A stretch of DNA of 52,946 bases from assembly GCA_023249475.1 (NCBI GenBank), contig JAHFCO010000013.1, positions 1-52,946 of the forward strand. Direction: 5' to 3'. The notes under the pieces are model-generated. The model was given only the letters and a program-made list of their open reading frames with translations, ran no database searches and was not told where the DNA came from. The DNA comes from Bacillota bacterium (GTDB lineage Bacteria > Bacillota_I > Bacilli_A > Erysipelotrichales > Erysipelotrichaceae). How positions within the stretch are numbered: the stretch's first letter is position 1; every line of letters begins with the position of its first letter. Shown piece by piece: positions 32,438-39,029 of the stretch. A program made the position numbers and the translations under genes.

Positions 32438-33082
32438 ATGTATATCGTAATCGTAGGATGCGGGAAGATCGGATCCATCGTCGCCAAAGAATTGGCGAAC
32501 CAGAATCATAACATTTCCGTCGTCGAACGCGACGGGGATAAGTTGTACGCCTTGGGTCAGGGGTTCAACGGTTTCATCACCAAAGGCATCGAATTCGACC
32601 ATGACAATCTGATCGGGGCCGGGATCGAAAAAGCCGACGCGGTGTTGGCGCTGACCGACGACGACAACATCAACATCACCGTTTCCTTGGTGGCGACCAA
32701 GATTTTCAACGTGAAACGGGTCATCGCCCAAGTGGTCGATCCGGGACGCCGCCATGTCTACGACGCCCTCAACATCGAAGTGATCAGTCCCATCCGCATG
32801 GGTGTCAATTCGTTGCTGGGTCGGATGGCGCTCGCCACCACCGAGAAACTTTCCCAATTGGGGCAAGGGTATGAAGTCGTCCGCGTCGTGAACCATCGCG
32901 AGCCCAACTTTTCGGTCGAGGAACTGGAAAGCAAGACGGAATCAATCGTTTCCGCGATCGAAAGGGACGGCACGGTCATTCTTCCCGTGCTCAAACACAG
33001 TAAAATCAAGGAAGGCGACGGACTCGTCGTCACCCTGCATGTCAAGAACCGTCAAAAACTACATGACTACGTGAAGGAGTAA
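32438..33082 (+). CDS. trkA: TrkA-type potassium uptake regulatory subunit (first)
   Basis: The start at 32438 follows AAGGGAG, and an upstream in-frame GTG lies before that site. The 214-residue cytoplasmic protein has an RCK/TrkA-N Rossmann domain, with the nucleotide loop GCGKIGS at residues 7-13 and the acidic end of strand two in VVERDGDKL. A TrkA-C domain follows (about 130-214). Such subunits bind NAD(H) or ATP and gate TrkH. It starts the trk operon, 3 bases from a second TrkA gene. Confidence 0.92.
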   Translation: MYIVIVGCGKIGSIVAKELANQNHNISVVERDGDKLYALGQGFNGFITKGIEFDHDNLIGAGIEKADAVLALTDDDNINITVSLVATKIFNVKRVIAQVVDPGRRHVYDALNIEVISPIRMGVNSLLGRMALATTEKLSQLGQGYEVVRVVNHREPNFSVEELESKTESIVSAIERDGTVILPVLKHSKIKEGDGLVVTLHVKNRQKLHDYVKE

Positions 33083-33085
33083 AAC

Positions 33086-33745
33086 ATGAAAGCAATCATC
33101 GTCGGTGGCGGGAAGGTCGGCTATTATCTGGTCAAGACCCTCAATGAGAAGGGGATGGAAATCACCCTGATCGAGAAGGACCCGCTGACCGCCCAGCGGA
33201 TTTCCGAAGAGTTGAATATCGAAGTGCAATGCGGCGATGGTTCTGACATCGACGTTTTAAACGACGCGGGGATTCAGAAGGTGGAGTTGGTCGCGGCGGT
33301 GACAGGGAGCGACGAGGAAAACCTCGTGGTCTGCCAGATCGCCAAAGCCAGTTTCAACGTGGCGAAAACCATCGCCCGCATCAACAATCCGAAGAACATC
33401 GAAATGTTTAAGGCGTTGGGCGTCGACAAGACGGTCTGCAGCACGGAAGTCATCGCCGACCTGATCGAATACGAAGTGGACAACGACTCGGTGAGAATCG
33501 TCCAAACCTTCGAAATGGGTTCGATGGTGTTGGCCGAAGTCCACATCCGACCGACCTCGAAATGGTTGGACCTCCCCATCAAGGCCATCAATCTTCCCTT
33601 GGACTGCGTCGTCGTGTCGATCGTCCGCAACGGTAAAGTCATCTATCCGCGCGGGGATTCGGAACTCCACCTCAACGACGAAGTATTGGTCGTCACCGAC
33701 AAAGAAAGCATGCAGACGCTCCGTAAGAGCGTATGCAAGGGATAA
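33086..33745 (+). CDS. trkA: TrkA-type potassium uptake regulatory subunit (second)
   Basis: The 219-residue protein repeats the RCK layout: VGGGKVGYYL at residues 6-15, IEKDPLTAQRI at the ribose-binding acidic residue, AAVTGSDEENLV, and a TrkA-C domain ending near VTDKESM. Two separate TrkA chains may form a mixed gating ring, in place of the duplicated TrkA chain of enterobacteria. It is 3 bases from the first TrkA gene and 3 bases before a 44-residue membrane peptide gene. Confidence 0.92.
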   Translation: MKAIIVGGGKVGYYLVKTLNEKGMEITLIEKDPLTAQRISEELNIEVQCGDGSDIDVLNDAGIQKVELVAAVTGSDEENLVVCQIAKASFNVAKTIARINNPKNIEMFKALGVDKTVCSTEVIADLIEYEVDNDSVRIVQTFEMGSMVLAEVHIRPTSKWLDLPIKAINLPLDCVVVSIVRNGKVIYPRGDSELHLNDEVLVVTDKESMQTLRKSVCKG

Positions 33746-33748
33746 GCT

Positions 33749-33883
33749 ATGAAACGCTTTACTTTCAACAAGGCGACATTCAAGTCGGATGCGCTCGGTT
33801 ATGCCAGCGAGATCGGATGGATGGTCCTCTATACGATCGCCTTGTTTCTCTTGACCTGGATCATCTCGGTGATCCCATGGTAA
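33749..33883 (+). CDS. 44-residue single-span membrane peptide in the trk operon
   Basis: The frame starts MKRFTFNKATFK and ends SVIPW. Residues 1-22 are polar and basic, and 23-44 form one hydrophobic span (WMVLYTIALFLLTWIISV). AAGGG lies seven bases before its ATG. Its end overlaps the TrkH start by seven bases (ATGGTAA), so TrkH is likely coupled to it. TrkH itself has no strong ribosome binding site, which argues that the peptide is translated. I know no family. A small transporter subunit of the KdpF kind is a fair hypothesis. Confidence 0.65.
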   Translation: MKRFTFNKATFKSDALGYASEIGWMVLYTIALFLLTWIISVIPW

Positions 33884-35403
33884 AGGAAATCAAACACCCC
33901 ACCCTTGGGATCATTTCGTATTACACCGGCTACATCATCGTCGGTATGAGTCTGTTCATGATTTTCCCTGCGCTTGTTTCGACGATCTTCGGCGAATGGA
34001 ACGTCGTTCTCGACTTCCTGATTTCATTGTTCATCTCCTTGAGCCTAGGCATGACCATGGTGTTGTTCGGTCGCAATACCCGCCTGCAAAACGGTAAATT
34101 GATGTGGAAGCACGGATTCGTCGTGGCTTCCTTGTCTTGGTTCGTTCTGATGTTTCTTTGCGCCATTCCGTATCTGCTCAGCGGCCACATGAACTCGTTG
34201 CTTGACGCGACCTTCGACGTCATGAGCGGATTCACCACCACCGGCGTGTTCCTGCTTCAGGACCTCGACCATGTCTCCGTCGGTTTGAATCTCTGGCGTC
34301 ATATGCTGACGTTCATCGGCGGCCAAGGGATGGTGGTCCTTGCGCTTTCTTTCCTGGTTCGCGAAATGGCAGGGGCGTACAAGTTCTATGTCGGCGAAGG
34401 GAAGGATGTCGCCCTGGTCCCCAACGTTCGCGGGACCACGCAAATCATCTGGATCATCAGTCTGGTCTACCTGGTCATCGGGACGATTGTCTTGTTCATC
34501 AACGGGGTATTGATCGGATTGAATCCGACCAACGCCTTTTTCCATGGACTTTATATTTTCATGGCGGGTTGGAGTACGGGCGGTTTCGCACCGAATCTGC
34601 AGAACATCATGTACTATCACAGTTTCTCCTATGAAATCGTTACGATCGTCTTCTTCGTACTCGGTTCGATGAACTTCGGTCTGCATTACGCGATCATCAA
34701 GGGCAAGAAGATGGAGTTTCTGAAGAACATCGAAATGCAAAGTTTCATCATCTCTTCGTTTGTCGGATCCGCCATCGCGGCGGTCGCCTTGGCGAAGTCC
34801 GGACTCTATACGGATTCGATTTCCCTCTTCCGACGCGTCGTCTACAACATCGTTTCCGCCAACACCACGACCGGCTTCGGATCGATCTTCGCCCGCCAGT
34901 TCATCTTGGAATGGGGGCCGTTGGGCATGCTTGCGATCACCATCGTCATGTTGATCGGCGGAAGCGCCTGTTCGACCGCCGGCGGATTCAAAGGCTTGCG
35001 TGTCGGCATCGTCGTCAAAGCGTTTTTCGCGGATATGCGCAAACTTCTGACATCGGAACGCCGCGTCAAGATCGAAAAGTATCATCACATCAAAGACATG
35101 GTGTTGGACGACGCGATCGTGCGTACCTCAAGCATGATCATCTTTCTCTATCTTCTCATGTTCATCGGGGCGACGATGTTGGGGGCGTATTTCGGCTATC
35201 CCGTCGTCGATTCGATGTTCGAAGCGGCATCCATCAGCGGTAACGTTGGTCTTTCGGTCGGCATCACCGCGACGACCATGCCTTCGGCGATGAAAGTCTA
35301 CTATATTCTTGCGATGTATCTCGGCCGCTTGGAATTCCTTTCGGTGTTCGCACTGATCGGCGTCATGGCGCAAGGAGTGAAAACATGGTTAAAAAGAGCG
35401 TAG
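33877..35403 (+). CDS. trkH: TrkH/KtrB-type potassium transporter membrane subunit
   Basis: With the start at 33877 (MVKEIKHPTLG) the protein has 508 residues and the four-fold M1-P-M2 plan of Trk channels. Selectivity-filter regions with conserved Gly are visible: FDVMSGFTTTGVF, FMAGWSTGGFAPN, VSANTTTGFGSIF and EAASISGNVGLSVG. The length is near TrkH. The start overlaps the small peptide gene, and the stop overlaps the next gene by 19 bases. It imports K+ with the two TrkA chains. A KdpE/KdpD pair 2 kb away could supply potassium or turgor sensing. Confidence 0.95.
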   Translation: MVKEIKHPTLGIISYYTGYIIVGMSLFMIFPALVSTIFGEWNVVLDFLISLFISLSLGMTMVLFGRNTRLQNGKLMWKHGFVVASLSWFVLMFLCAIPYLLSGHMNSLLDATFDVMSGFTTTGVFLLQDLDHVSVGLNLWRHMLTFIGGQGMVVLALSFLVREMAGAYKFYVGEGKDVALVPNVRGTTQIIWIISLVYLVIGTIVLFINGVLIGLNPTNAFFHGLYIFMAGWSTGGFAPNLQNIMYYHSFSYEIVTIVFFVLGSMNFGLHYAIIKGKKMEFLKNIEMQSFIISSFVGSAIAAVALAKSGLYTDSISLFRRVVYNIVSANTTTGFGSIFARQFILEWGPLGMLAITIVMLIGGSACSTAGGFKGLRVGIVVKAFFADMRKLLTSERRVKIEKYHHIKDMVLDDAIVRTSSMIIFLYLLMFIGATMLGAYFGYPVVDSMFEAASISGNVGLSVGITATTMPSAMKVYYILAMYLGRLEFLSVFALIGVMAQGVKTWLKRA

Positions 35404-35903
35404 TCTTCGTATTCCTGATCCTATTGTTCACCGTACCCGTCCACGCCTCCAAGTGGACGATCAACGAACTGGTCGAGAACGCGGATCTGTTGGACGGGGT
35501 GGTCGTGACCATCGAAGCCGAGGCGATCGGCGAAGTGCTGGAACGCGGCGACTTCGCGTGGGTCAACATCAACGACGCGACCAATGCGATCGGGGTGTAT
35601 GTTCCGATCGCGGAAGCGAAGAAAATCAAGATTTTCGGAGACTACAAGCACACCGGGGATACGATCCGCTTCTCGGCGGTCTTTCATAACGCGTGTGTCG
35701 AACACGGGGGCGAAATGGACTTGCATGCCTCATCGATTTCGATCGTCAAGACGGGGTCGTCGACGGATCATCCGATCGATCCGATGAAAGTGGTTCTCTT
35801 TGGATTCCTGGCTTTTCTCACTCTGGGGATTGGTGTATACTTTTACCATACCGTCAAACCCAAACGGGTCCACGGCCATCAGAGCGAGGATGAAACGGAA
35901 TGA
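35385..35903 (+). CDS. Membrane-anchored OB-fold-like protein in the trk operon
   Basis: The 172-residue protein has a Sec signal (VVFVFLILLFTVPVHASK), a central domain (about 25-125) and a C-terminal hydrophobic span (about 135-155) before a short charged tail. The central part, LDGVVVTIEAEAIGEVLERGDFAWVNINDATNAIGVYVP, has the strand pattern of a small OB-fold as in tRNA-anticodon or NlpE-like domains (the segment is residues 36-74). AAGGAG precedes its start inside trkH, so it belongs to the same operon. Ligand and role are unknown. Confidence 0.72.
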   Translation: MVKKSVVFVFLILLFTVPVHASKWTINELVENADLLDGVVVTIEAEAIGEVLERGDFAWVNINDATNAIGVYVPIAEAKKIKIFGDYKHTGDTIRFSAVFHNACVEHGGEMDLHASSISIVKTGSSTDHPIDPMKVVLFGFLAFLTLGIGVYFYHTVKPKRVHGHQSEDETE

Positions 35904-36416: not shown

Positions 36417-36440
36417 AAACAAAAAAACCGCTTGCGCGGT
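36417..36440 (-). terminator. Terminator of the TPR gene
   Basis: On the minus strand AACCGC-GCAA-GCGGTT is followed by six or seven T. Confidence 0.82.
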
Positions 36441-36778
36441 TATTTCGAATTCTCCATCCGTTGTTTCAGACTCAACACGTCGAGCCCATAATCGATGCTG
36501 GTTTTTTTACGTCCGAACTCGCCTAAGCGATAAAGGTTCGCCAACGCCGGACGATAGGTACCGTCAAGGTTCGCCGCGGCACGATAATGACGCATCGCGA
36601 CCGCTTCGTCGTTCTTCAATTCAAACATGATCCCTAAGAGGTTGTGGATCTGCGGGGCGTTCACATCGATGGCGAAGGCGAGTTGGATTTGTTCCTTCGC
36701 TCCCTGAAAATCCGCCGATTGGATGTATTCCACCGCTCTACCCAAGATCTCCTGTAAACTTCCGTATTTTTCTGTCAT
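36440..36778 (-). CDS. Small tetratricopeptide-repeat protein
   Basis: The start at 36778 (MTEKYGSLQEI) follows GGAAGGTGA and gives 112 residues. Two or three TPR-like helix pairs are visible, for example ADFQGAKEQIQLAFAIDVNA (residues 22-41) and NDEAVAMRHYRAAANLDGTY. TPR proteins act as docking surfaces, and no partner is evident. It is soluble, without signal or anchor. A TATAAT (36802-36797, minus) lies upstream. It sits between the trk operon and kdpDE, on the same strand as kdpDE. Confidence 0.75.
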   Translation of the reverse strand: MTEKYGSLQEILGRAVEYIQSADFQGAKEQIQLAFAIDVNAPQIHNLLGIMFELKNDEAVAMRHYRAAANLDGTYRPALANLYRLGEFGRKKTSIDYGLDVLSLKQRMENSK

Positions 36779-36857
36779 CGAATCACCTTCCGCAACTATT
36801 ATAGAAAATGGGATATAAAAACAGTGTAAAGAAGCGAAAAGCGATATAAAGAAGTTG

Positions 36858-37562
36858 TTAAGATGGATCTTCGCAGAATCGATAGCCGATTCCGATCTCC
36901 GTGACGATGTAGCTGGGACGCGCCGGATCGGCTTCAATCTTGCGTCGCAGGTTCGCCATGGTGACCCGCAGGGTCTGCGTATCGGATTCCAAAGCCACCG
37001 AACCCCAGACTTCCTTGACGATGAAACGATAGGTCAACACCTTCCCCTGATGCTTGATCAAAAGACGGAGCACTTGGTATTCAATGGGGGTTAAATGGAC
37101 TTCCTGTTGGTTGACGAGCACTTTACGCCGCTCGAAATCGACGGTCAAGTCTTTATAGACGAAGGTTTCCTCGACGGCGACATTCATCTCGGCCGTCGCT
37201 TTCTTATGCCGCAGGGCGACGCGGATGCGCGCCAGCAGTTCCTGCGCATTGAACGGTTTGGTGAGATAGTCGTCGGCGCCTTCATCCAAAGCGCTGACCT
37301 TGTCGTTTTCTTTTCCCCGCGCACTCACCACGATGATGGATGAATTCACATGGGGACGGATTTCCCGGATCACCGTCAAGCCGTCGTTGTCGGGCAATCC
37401 CAGGTCCAATAAAATGATATCGGGTTGGTTGGACAGGGCGAGGGTGATCCCGCCGTTGCCGTCCTCCGCTTCGATCACATGGTAGTTCTGCGCCGTCAGT
37501 AAGACACGCATGAAACTGCGGATCGAACGATCGTCTTCGACGATCAGTATTTTCTCATTCAT
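36858..37562 (-). CDS. kdpE: KdpE-type OmpR-family response regulator
   Basis: The 234-residue regulator has a receiver domain with acidic pair D10-D11, phosphoacceptor D53 (LLDLGLPD) and lysine K102 (LTKPF), and an OmpR winged helix (about 130-228) with LTPIEYQVLRLLIKHQGKVL and a C-terminal YRFCEDPS. Similarity is greatest to KdpE. It overlaps the kdpD-like gene by 8 bases, so the pair is made together. No kdpFABC genes are nearby. Control of the trk operon 1.1 kb away is a reasonable idea. Confidence 0.88.
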   Translation of the reverse strand: MNEKILIVEDDRSIRSFMRVLLTAQNYHVIEAEDGNGGITLALSNQPDIILLDLGLPDNDGLTVIREIRPHVNSSIIVVSARGKENDKVSALDEGADDYLTKPFNAQELLARIRVALRHKKATAEMNVAVEETFVYKDLTVDFERRKVLVNQQEVHLTPIEYQVLRLLIKHQGKVLTYRFIVKEVWGSVALESDTQTLRVTMANLRRKIEADPARPSYIVTEIGIGYRFCEDPS

Positions 37563-39000
37563 CGCTTACCCCTCCCTCCAATGGCAACACGACGCGAAAC
37601 AGAGAACCCTGGGGCGGATTGTCGTGTGCGGTGATCGACCCGTTGTGGGCTTCGACGATCGCTTTACAGATGGACAAGCCCAAACCCAAGCCTTTGCGTT
37701 TGGTTAGATAGCCCACATCCCCGCTATAGAAGCGCTCGAAGATCTTCTCGTGCTGTTCCTTGGGGATCCCAAGACCATGATCACACACCTCGAACACGGC
37801 GGTCTTGCCTTTCCGGTACGCCCTGAGCGTGATTTCGCTCTCTTGCGGCGAATACTTCACCGCGTTGTTCAATAGGTTCAACAGTACCTTCTCCATCAAG
37901 GTGCCATCCATGGGGACCATGAGAAGTTCGTCGGGGACATCCAGGACGAACTTCTGTTTCGCCGTGGAAACCACGTGCGAAACCAGATCCCCGAACAAGT
38001 CCTCCACCGACTCCATCTGTTTGTTTAGCTTCAACTTCCCGTCCTCGACCCGGGTGAAACTGAGGATGTTCTCGACCGATTCGATCAGCCATTCCGCATC
38101 GTCGCGGATGTTGGTGAGGAGCTCCTTCTTGATCGGTTCGTTGAGTTGGTCGTAGTTCTCGATGATCGTATCGGTGGAACCGATGATGGTCGCCAACGGA
38201 GTACGCAGGTCATGGGAAATCGCCCCCAAGAGACTATTGCGTAGTTTCTGCTCCCGTATCTCGATCTGCGCCTGCGTCTGCGTCCGCAGAAGCGCCTCTT
38301 TCTCCAAGGCGGCGGAAATCTGGTTCGCCACGTTCAAGGTGAACTGCGCGGTTTCTTCCGTCAGGGGATGATGTGTCTTCAGTGAAAAACTACCCGACAT
38401 TTCGCTTTCCGTCGTCAAGGGATGGGTGATGATCGTGGGATCCGTTTCGGCGGTCTCGAAAGGGACGACGCTCTTAAACAACAACGGTCCGCCCTGGGTC
38501 AAGACGACGATTTTCACTTCGCCTTTGAAGTAGGAAGCGGAAAGGTCGGCGACCTTTCCCAGGGTATCCTGGATGGATACGGAATGGATGAACAAACGGT
38601 TGATTTCGTCCAAAAGGCGAAGGCGTTCTTGACGAAGGTTCGAGAGTTCGGTTTGATGGGTAAGGCGGGTGGTCAAGGAAGAGATCAGGATGGACGCCAC
38701 GAACATGACGATGAAGGTGACGAAATAGTCCGGATGGTTGATATAGAAGGTGAAGATCGGTTGGGTGAAGAAGAAGTTGAAGGAAAGGACGCTCAGGAAG
38801 GAAGCGAGGATGCCGAAGAACTTGCCGTGCGTTAACGCCGCGACGCCCATGACGCCCATCAGATAGGTGATCGTCAGGGTCGCGTCCTGGAATTCGAGCG
38901 ACTTGAAGAAAAGGGAAACCAGGGTCGTGAACGCGACCATCAAAAGAGAAATCGCGAAGTCTCGTCCCATCCTCTTTTTATCGGTGAATCGGAAATTCAT
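37555..39000 (-). CDS. kdpD: KdpD-like sensor histidine kinase lacking the N-terminal KdpD/Usp domains
   Basis: The start at 39000 is six bases after GAAGGA and gives 481 residues. Four membrane spans of the KdpD (DUF4118) type cover residues 10-110. Then come a GAF-like domain (about 130-245), a HisKA domain with H-box AISHDLRTPLATIIGS, and a HATPase with N-box LLNLLNNAVKYS and G-boxes VCDHGLGIP and GLGLGLSI. The 350 or so cytoplasmic residues before the spans in classic KdpD are absent, with the potassium or c-di-AMP-linked sensing they carry. All catalytic residues look intact. Confidence 0.88.
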   Translation of the reverse strand: MNFRFTDKKRMGRDFAISLLMVAFTTLVSLFFKSLEFQDATLTITYLMGVMGVAALTHGKFFGILASFLSVLSFNFFFTQPIFTFYINHPDYFVTFIVMFVASILISSLTTRLTHQTELSNLRQERLRLLDEINRLFIHSVSIQDTLGKVADLSASYFKGEVKIVVLTQGGPLLFKSVVPFETAETDPTIITHPLTTESEMSGSFSLKTHHPLTEETAQFTLNVANQISAALEKEALLRTQTQAQIEIREQKLRNSLLGAISHDLRTPLATIIGSTDTIIENYDQLNEPIKKELLTNIRDDAEWLIESVENILSFTRVEDGKLKLNKQMESVEDLFGDLVSHVVSTAKQKFVLDVPDELLMVPMDGTLMEKVLLNLLNNAVKYSPQESEITLRAYRKGKTAVFEVCDHGLGIPKEQHEKIFERFYSGDVGYLTKRKGLGLGLSICKAIVEAHNGSITAHDNPPQGSLFRVVLPLEGGVSDE

Positions 39001-39029
39001 CTTCATTCCTTCTTTCATTTACAATTGCC

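Follow-up and report, generated by a model that had tools for sequence, protein, structure and literature searches.

A 44-codon open reading frame at positions 33749-33883 of the window (the whole 52,946-nucleotide stretch of Bacillota DNA analysed here) is, on comparative sequence grounds, a real gene, and its product, a one-helix membrane peptide, is probably an accessory subunit belonging to a distinct kind of TrkA-TrkH potassium channel. The features of the locus are as follows:

32438..33082, + strand: first trkA-like gene, 214 aa from the ATG at 32438, with a TrkA_N domain
33086..33745, + strand: second trkA-like gene, 219 aa, with TrkA_N and TrkA_C domains
33736..33741 (approximate), + strand: AAGGGA, a moderate ribosome-binding site about 6-8 nt 5′ of the peptide ATG (-5.1 kcal/mol)
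33749..33883, + strand: peptide gene, 44 aa, one transmembrane (TM) helix, with Gly17 and Glu21 forming a G-x3-E signature
33797..33811, + strand: codons of G17-Y-A-S-E21, the near-invariant signature, from the peptide alignments and the motif census
33877..35403, + strand: trkH of a divergent subfamily, 508 aa, its start overlapping the peptide stop
35385..35903, + strand: exported OB-fold protein with a C-terminal TM helix; a homologue follows every subfamily trkH tested

As read from gene order, the operon of this subfamily is trkA1-trkA2-peptide-trkH-OB.

The peptide ORF runs from the ATG at 33749 to a TAA ending at 33883 and encodes MKRFTFNKATFKSDALGYASEIGWMVLYTIALFLLTWIISVIPW. The initial annotation had described a 44-residue frame with a single hydrophobic span whose stop overlaps the trkH start as ATGGTAA, and all of this was as described, the upstream trkA gene ending at 33745 and the trkH ATG lying at 33877. 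It had also credited the peptide with a good ribosome binding site; a site is present, but it is of moderate strength, and the accompanying claim that trkH would otherwise lack a convincing start signal did not hold, since the sequence GGTGATC just 5′ of trkH is complementary to the 16S tail (-11.2 kcal/mol). Mechanical extension of trkH in the 5′ direction to 33733 was rejected, as the extension is not conserved and a same-genus relative has a stop within it. The same-genus relative Erysipelotrichaceae MAG UBA12416 (L045) has a peptide with 91% identity, and in a different genus of this family (G008) a 30-aa peptide, MKRLNGYIFEIGFVMVMMSVYFLITWLISL, occupies the same position with ATGA overlaps with both neighbours. 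A relative (L017) has no such ribosome site ahead of its peptide gene, which starts within the trkA stop (ATGA) and ends within the trkH start (ATGA). Elsewhere in the family and order, the sampled TrkH loci showed no such ORF, and there trkA abuts or overlaps trkH.

The 508-aa neighbour is identified as TrkH by its Pfam score (PF02386, 118.9 bits against a cut-off of 27) and by a full-length fold. It nevertheless falls short of the curated NCBIfam TrkH cut-offs (130.6 vs 866 bits for NF008020 and 198.4 vs 331 bits for TIGR00933), which places it in a divergent TrkH subfamily. A second TrkH with a higher Pfam-model score is encoded elsewhere in the genome of the window (G000:C56), so that the locus studied here is a second Trk system. 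The predicted fold of the window TrkH (mean pLDDT 78) matched Vibrio parahaemolyticus TrkH with a Z score of 35.3, residues 8-499 of the model aligning with residues 2-483 (about 1-484) of the Vibrio protein, and KdpA was a more distant structural match (Z about 20). The model spans the whole of Vibrio TrkH, which rules out the idea that the peptide substitutes for a missing TrkH helix; as every helix of the Vibrio protein is present, the peptide would add one.

To follow this arrangement across genomes, TrkH proteins of three peptide carriers were used in a GTDB genome scan, which returned 31 loci. Nearly all of the complete loci among these had a one-TM ORF of 30-60 aa at the same position, the carriers belonging to Clostridia, Anaerocolumna, Clostridium pascui, Omnitrophota, Actinomycetota, Schekmanbacteria, Margulisbacteria and Caldisericia. 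Whole-genome searches covered the family and phylum of the window, Omnitrophota, a Lachnospiraceae-type family, the actinobacterial class of one carrier locus (L067), and the phyla of the Anaerocolumna, Margulisbacteria and Caldisericia loci, all searches together amounting to 1,744 genomes. Restricted to loci where sufficient sequence was available upstream of trkH, the census came to 198 distinct ones, 158 of the subfamily and 40 canonical; these are not independent observations, and many derive from metagenome-assembled genomes. Subfamily loci occur in Bacillota, Omnitrophota, Actinomycetota, Caldisericota, Margulisbacteria and Schekmanbacteria. By profile and inspection, a peptide of about 30-60 aa with one TM helix was present at 132 of the 158 subfamily loci and at none of the 40 canonical ones; profile misses were inspected by eye, which added four loci (L203, L230, L235 and L241). 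A model-free test, which required Gly, Ser or His followed by x3-Glu, then 15 uncharged residues with mean hydropathy above 1.5, within an ORF whose end lies close to the start of trkH, gave the same picture (126/158 subfamily loci vs 0/40 canonical). Its background was 6 passes in 3960 shuffled upstream regions and 4 in 1463 anchors placed inside trkH, rates so far below that at subfamily loci that the peptide must be far more than chance. Short hydrophobic ORFs are common, and a chance ORF or a toxin-like hydrophobic peptide might have been suspected for that reason; with chance refuted by the shuffles, with selection acting on the amino acids (below) and with one strong match per genome, we regard this as practically out of the question. 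In 24 of 25 genomes a profile built from 32 peptides had a single strong match, which fell at the trk locus, the 25th (G646) carrying a locus that has no peptide (L071); one extra weak match was seen (G637:C11:105914, E 0.009). The window peptide, itself one of those 32, scored 53.7 bits against this profile, and a profile made later picked up the majority of 54 loci that were new to it. As a one-TM ORF 5′ of a subfamily trkH with a G-x3-E motif, the window peptide belongs to this TrkH-associated family.

Phylogenetic trees placed every peptide-bearing TrkH in one clade with 100% support, and the peptide label changed 5 and 7 times on the trees, against about 46 and 38 times in shuffles. The peptide is absent from 26 subfamily loci, 15 of which keep trkA 5′ of trkH (12 from the Margulisbacteria search, L126, L127 and L071), and some lineages can thus do without it; at L126 and L127 trkA directly overlaps trkH. 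A TrkH clade in one actinobacterial class (L160-L166, L184 and L185) has neither an adjacent trkA nor the peptide and retains the OB protein.

The initial annotation had proposed a conserved frame in relatives and purifying selection as the test of this gene, and both were found. Beyond the counterparts in the census, the peptide frame gave a pN/pS of 0.32 (bootstrap 0.26-0.38) when pooled over 16 close pairs and 636 codons; the two alternative frames of this DNA gave 0.79 and 1.58 and contained 67 and 24 stops. The frame is under purifying selection, and the constraint is looser than that on TrkH, for which pN/pS was 0.12 over nearly the same pairs. In the alignment of 32 peptides the only invariant positions are the start Met, one Gly and a Glu four residues on (Gly and Glu each 32/32); in a larger alignment the Gly was found in 89/89 and the Glu in 85/89 peptides, and over the whole census the Gly was found in 121 of 126 motif-defined peptides and the Glu was missing from 5 of 132. 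A few copies from the Caldisericota search have Ser or His in place of the Gly and retain the Glu. Outside G-x3-E the sequence is loosely conserved, the residue after the Gly being Ile in 61/89 and Phe or Leu predominating at +16. Over the 22 residues from the Gly onward the sole charge is the Glu at +4 (with one exception among 89 peptides); it sits one turn inside the N-terminal end of a hydrophobic core of about 24 residues, of which it is the only charge, and most peptides terminate 25-28 residues past the Gly, i.e., just outside the membrane. Being four residues apart, the Gly and the Glu lie on one helix face. Net charge averages +2.1 before the core and +0.8 after it (58 peptides with N>C, 12 with N<C). 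Under the positive-inside rule the more positively charged flank of a TM helix stays inside, and the N-terminus is therefore predicted to be cytoplasmic.

Five sister loci from one actinobacterial clade (L156, L158, L159, L182 and L183) keep the Gly and have the Glu replaced, and four of the five have no trkA in the sequence stretch examined. A dependence of the Glu on an adjacent TrkA was considered, as initially 0/5 Glu-less peptides had trkA just upstream; it remained only a hint, and was weakened by Glu-bearing peptides that have no trkA (L124, L169, L234-L236 and L240) and by the fact that the Glu-less ones come from a single clade.

The position of the gene raises the question of whether translation of the peptide serves solely to deliver ribosomes to the start of trkH, its amino acids being irrelevant. 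Among 126 peptides, 112 terminate within 25 nt of the trkH start and 43 do so with a 4-nt ATGA-type overlap, which makes coupled translation likely and speaks for such a leader role. The amino-acid-level selection, the near-invariant Glu and the otherwise uncharged core described above speak against it, as does the finding that at least 14 loci have an intact peptide 30-246 nt 5′ of trkH with no contact between the two. In Anaerocolumna sedimenticola (L051) the peptide is intact despite extra DNA before trkH; this insert of about 240 nt between the peptide gene and trkH (L051:2737-2979) appears repeat-like by eye and is absent in a close relative (L050). Since the peptide stays intact where it is detached from trkH, it would be more than a translational coupler. 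Moreover, trkH in the window has its own 16S complementarity, and in some peptide-less lineages trkA overlaps trkH directly, so that coupling needs no peptide. We therefore consider a pure leader peptide improbable.

About a dozen peptides precede trkH with no adjacent trkA, which makes TrkH a more likely partner than TrkA. The peptide tracks one TrkH subfamily and is kept where no trkA adjoins, and for these reasons a small TrkH subunit, as the initial annotation had supposed, is the leading explanation; the constant neighbourhood and joint inheritance point to contact with TrkH indirectly. One-helix peptides encoded beside large membrane complexes are often stoichiometric subunits, KdpF and CydX being examples. 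This background also bears on a role as an insertion or assembly factor that helps TrkH or the OB protein to fold or dimerise and stays outside the mature channel: its gene lies just 5′ of trkH, so the peptide would be made first, and it is bound to one TrkH subfamily, yet nothing specific favours such a role and we judge it unlikely. An accessory subunit is also the reading to which the KdpA precedent points, since that member of the TrkH superfamily has such a peptide in KdpF.

As an accessory subunit, the peptide would be inserted with its basic N-terminus in the cytoplasm, synthesised in step with TrkH through the overlapping stop and start codons, and packed beside TrkH as an extra helix. 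The small Gly and the Glu four residues from it may form the helix-packing face. In such an arrangement the Glu would come to lie close to the cytoplasmic membrane face, where TrkA gates TrkH; a helix with a buried Glu at that point could stabilise the complex or tune or bias its opening. Structural work has located TrkH gating at the intramembrane loop and pore helices, which TrkA moves from the cytoplasmic side (PMC6987127), and in KtrB, ATP-driven opening depends on the N-terminus, which is situated at the interface with KtrA (PMC12059179). On the TrkH side, residue 377 of the window protein is a Gly in 85/85 TrkHs with a Glu-bearing peptide and Ala, Ser or Asn in most TrkHs in which the peptide or its Glu is missing, these belonging to two other groups, with the orphan clade retaining Gly. 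The probable position of G377 is helix D3M2b, which PMC6987127 assigns to the TrkH dimer interface, and the residue is a candidate peptide contact, which we offer as a lead only.

The gene downstream of trkH encodes a second unannotated partner of the subfamily, an OB-fold membrane protein that the initial annotation had missed. The 35385-35903 product combines an OB domain with a signal or anchor helix and a TM helix at its C-terminus (pLDDT of the model 89); the best structural matches of the model were for the most part aminoacyl-tRNA synthetase OB domains (E about 1e-5), Pfam and NCBIfam gave no assignment, and a literature search on TrkH with OB-fold proteins returned nothing relevant. 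Most copies share a conserved C-x-x-H-G-G-D/E-x-D-x-H stretch. A homologue lies directly 3′ of trkH at 135/135 subfamily loci with more than 600 nt of downstream sequence vs 0/37 canonical loci, and it is retained where the peptide has been lost; by these counts the OB protein is tied to the TrkH subfamily even more tightly than the peptide is. The window also holds a KdpE-like response regulator and a short KdpD-like kinase (DUF4118 plus kinase domain) adjoining the trk operon on the minus strand at 36858-39018, and this pair suggests potassium control of a Trk, not a kdp, operon. KdpE relatives were seen at the trk loci of 11 relatives, most sampled loci being short stretches. A small TPR-like protein is encoded at 36440-36937 on the minus strand, with homologues 5′ of trkA at 23 sampled loci that include both subfamily and canonical TrkH. 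With a KdpD/KdpE-like pair beside the operon and an OB protein at every subfamily locus tested, the peptide might be imagined as a separate membrane regulator acting on the kinase or on the OB protein and not on TrkH. We hold this to be very improbable, since the OB protein persists without the peptide and the two are thus separable, and since a KdpE relative occurs at so few sampled trk loci, a weak point given how short most of those stretches are.

Studies of TrkH and KtrB have treated the system as a channel protein with a cytosolic RCK ring, and the papers found describe no small membrane subunit. If the peptide is a subunit of TrkH, a near-invariant buried carboxylate would offer a direct way to approach the possible tuning of such a channel inside the membrane, annotation in several phyla would have overlooked a likely component of a textbook transport system, and subfamily complexes purified or modelled with neither the peptide nor the OB protein may be incomplete. 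It is conceivable, though we lean against it, that this Trk branch, found in at least six phyla, is a multi-subunit machine with two membrane partners, a one-helix peptide whose membrane-embedded Glu participates in TrkA-driven gating and an exported OB protein that senses or binds something outside.

Comparison with known families and systems returned no described family for the peptide in Pfam, NCBIfam or PDB sequences, searches in which short profiles have limited power, and the peptide profile had no match among PDB sequences at E<=10. Single weak Pfam and NCBIfam matches of individual members (SMIM5, CrgA and others) look like composition matches and were set aside. Literature searches on small Trk subunits found nothing relevant, subscription papers and supplements being outside their scope, and the main text of the small-protein papers examined mentions neither a trk gene nor potassium. 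The nearest likeness is KdpF, the peptide of about 30 aa in the KdpFABC potassium pump, which is likewise a one-helix peptide encoded beside a gene of the TrkH superfamily (kdpA) and which, according to Gassel 1999 (cited in PMC11364881), stabilises the complex it belongs to. The window peptide shares the single short TM helix, with its core of some 24 residues and one Glu, but differs in its G-x3-E signature and in its neighbourhood, which consists of trkA-like genes, trkH and the OB-fold gene instead of kdpA, kdpB and kdpC. No match to a KdpF profile was found among the 32 members at E<=1, short profiles again limiting power, so that the comparison with KdpF drawn in the initial annotation stands as an analogy, and kinship, for which neither a profile match nor a kdp context speaks, is unsupported. 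The disordered N-terminal region of KtrB in Vibrio KtrAB (PMC12059179) is likewise short, lies on the KtrA/KtrB side of the membrane and matters for ATP-driven opening, but this region belongs to the channel protein as its N-terminus, has no gene of its own and is no TM helix. Vibrio parahaemolyticus TrkH-TrkA (3pjz, 4j9u, 6v4j-l; PMC6987127) matches the window TrkH in fold over its full length and in having an adjacent trkA; it differs in that PMC6987127 has TrkH and TrkA only, in a structure-based identity of about 23%, and in its TrkA, which in the window is instead encoded by two separate one-domain genes. CydX-type one-helix subunits are similarly short, overlooked, part of a large membrane complex and widespread in bacteria (PMC4325964), but belong to an unrelated complex (cytochrome bd) with unrelated sequence, the comparison covering profile scans. 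One-helix companion subunits are accordingly known in KdpF and CydX, and one for Trk/Ktr is, as far as could be tested, new.
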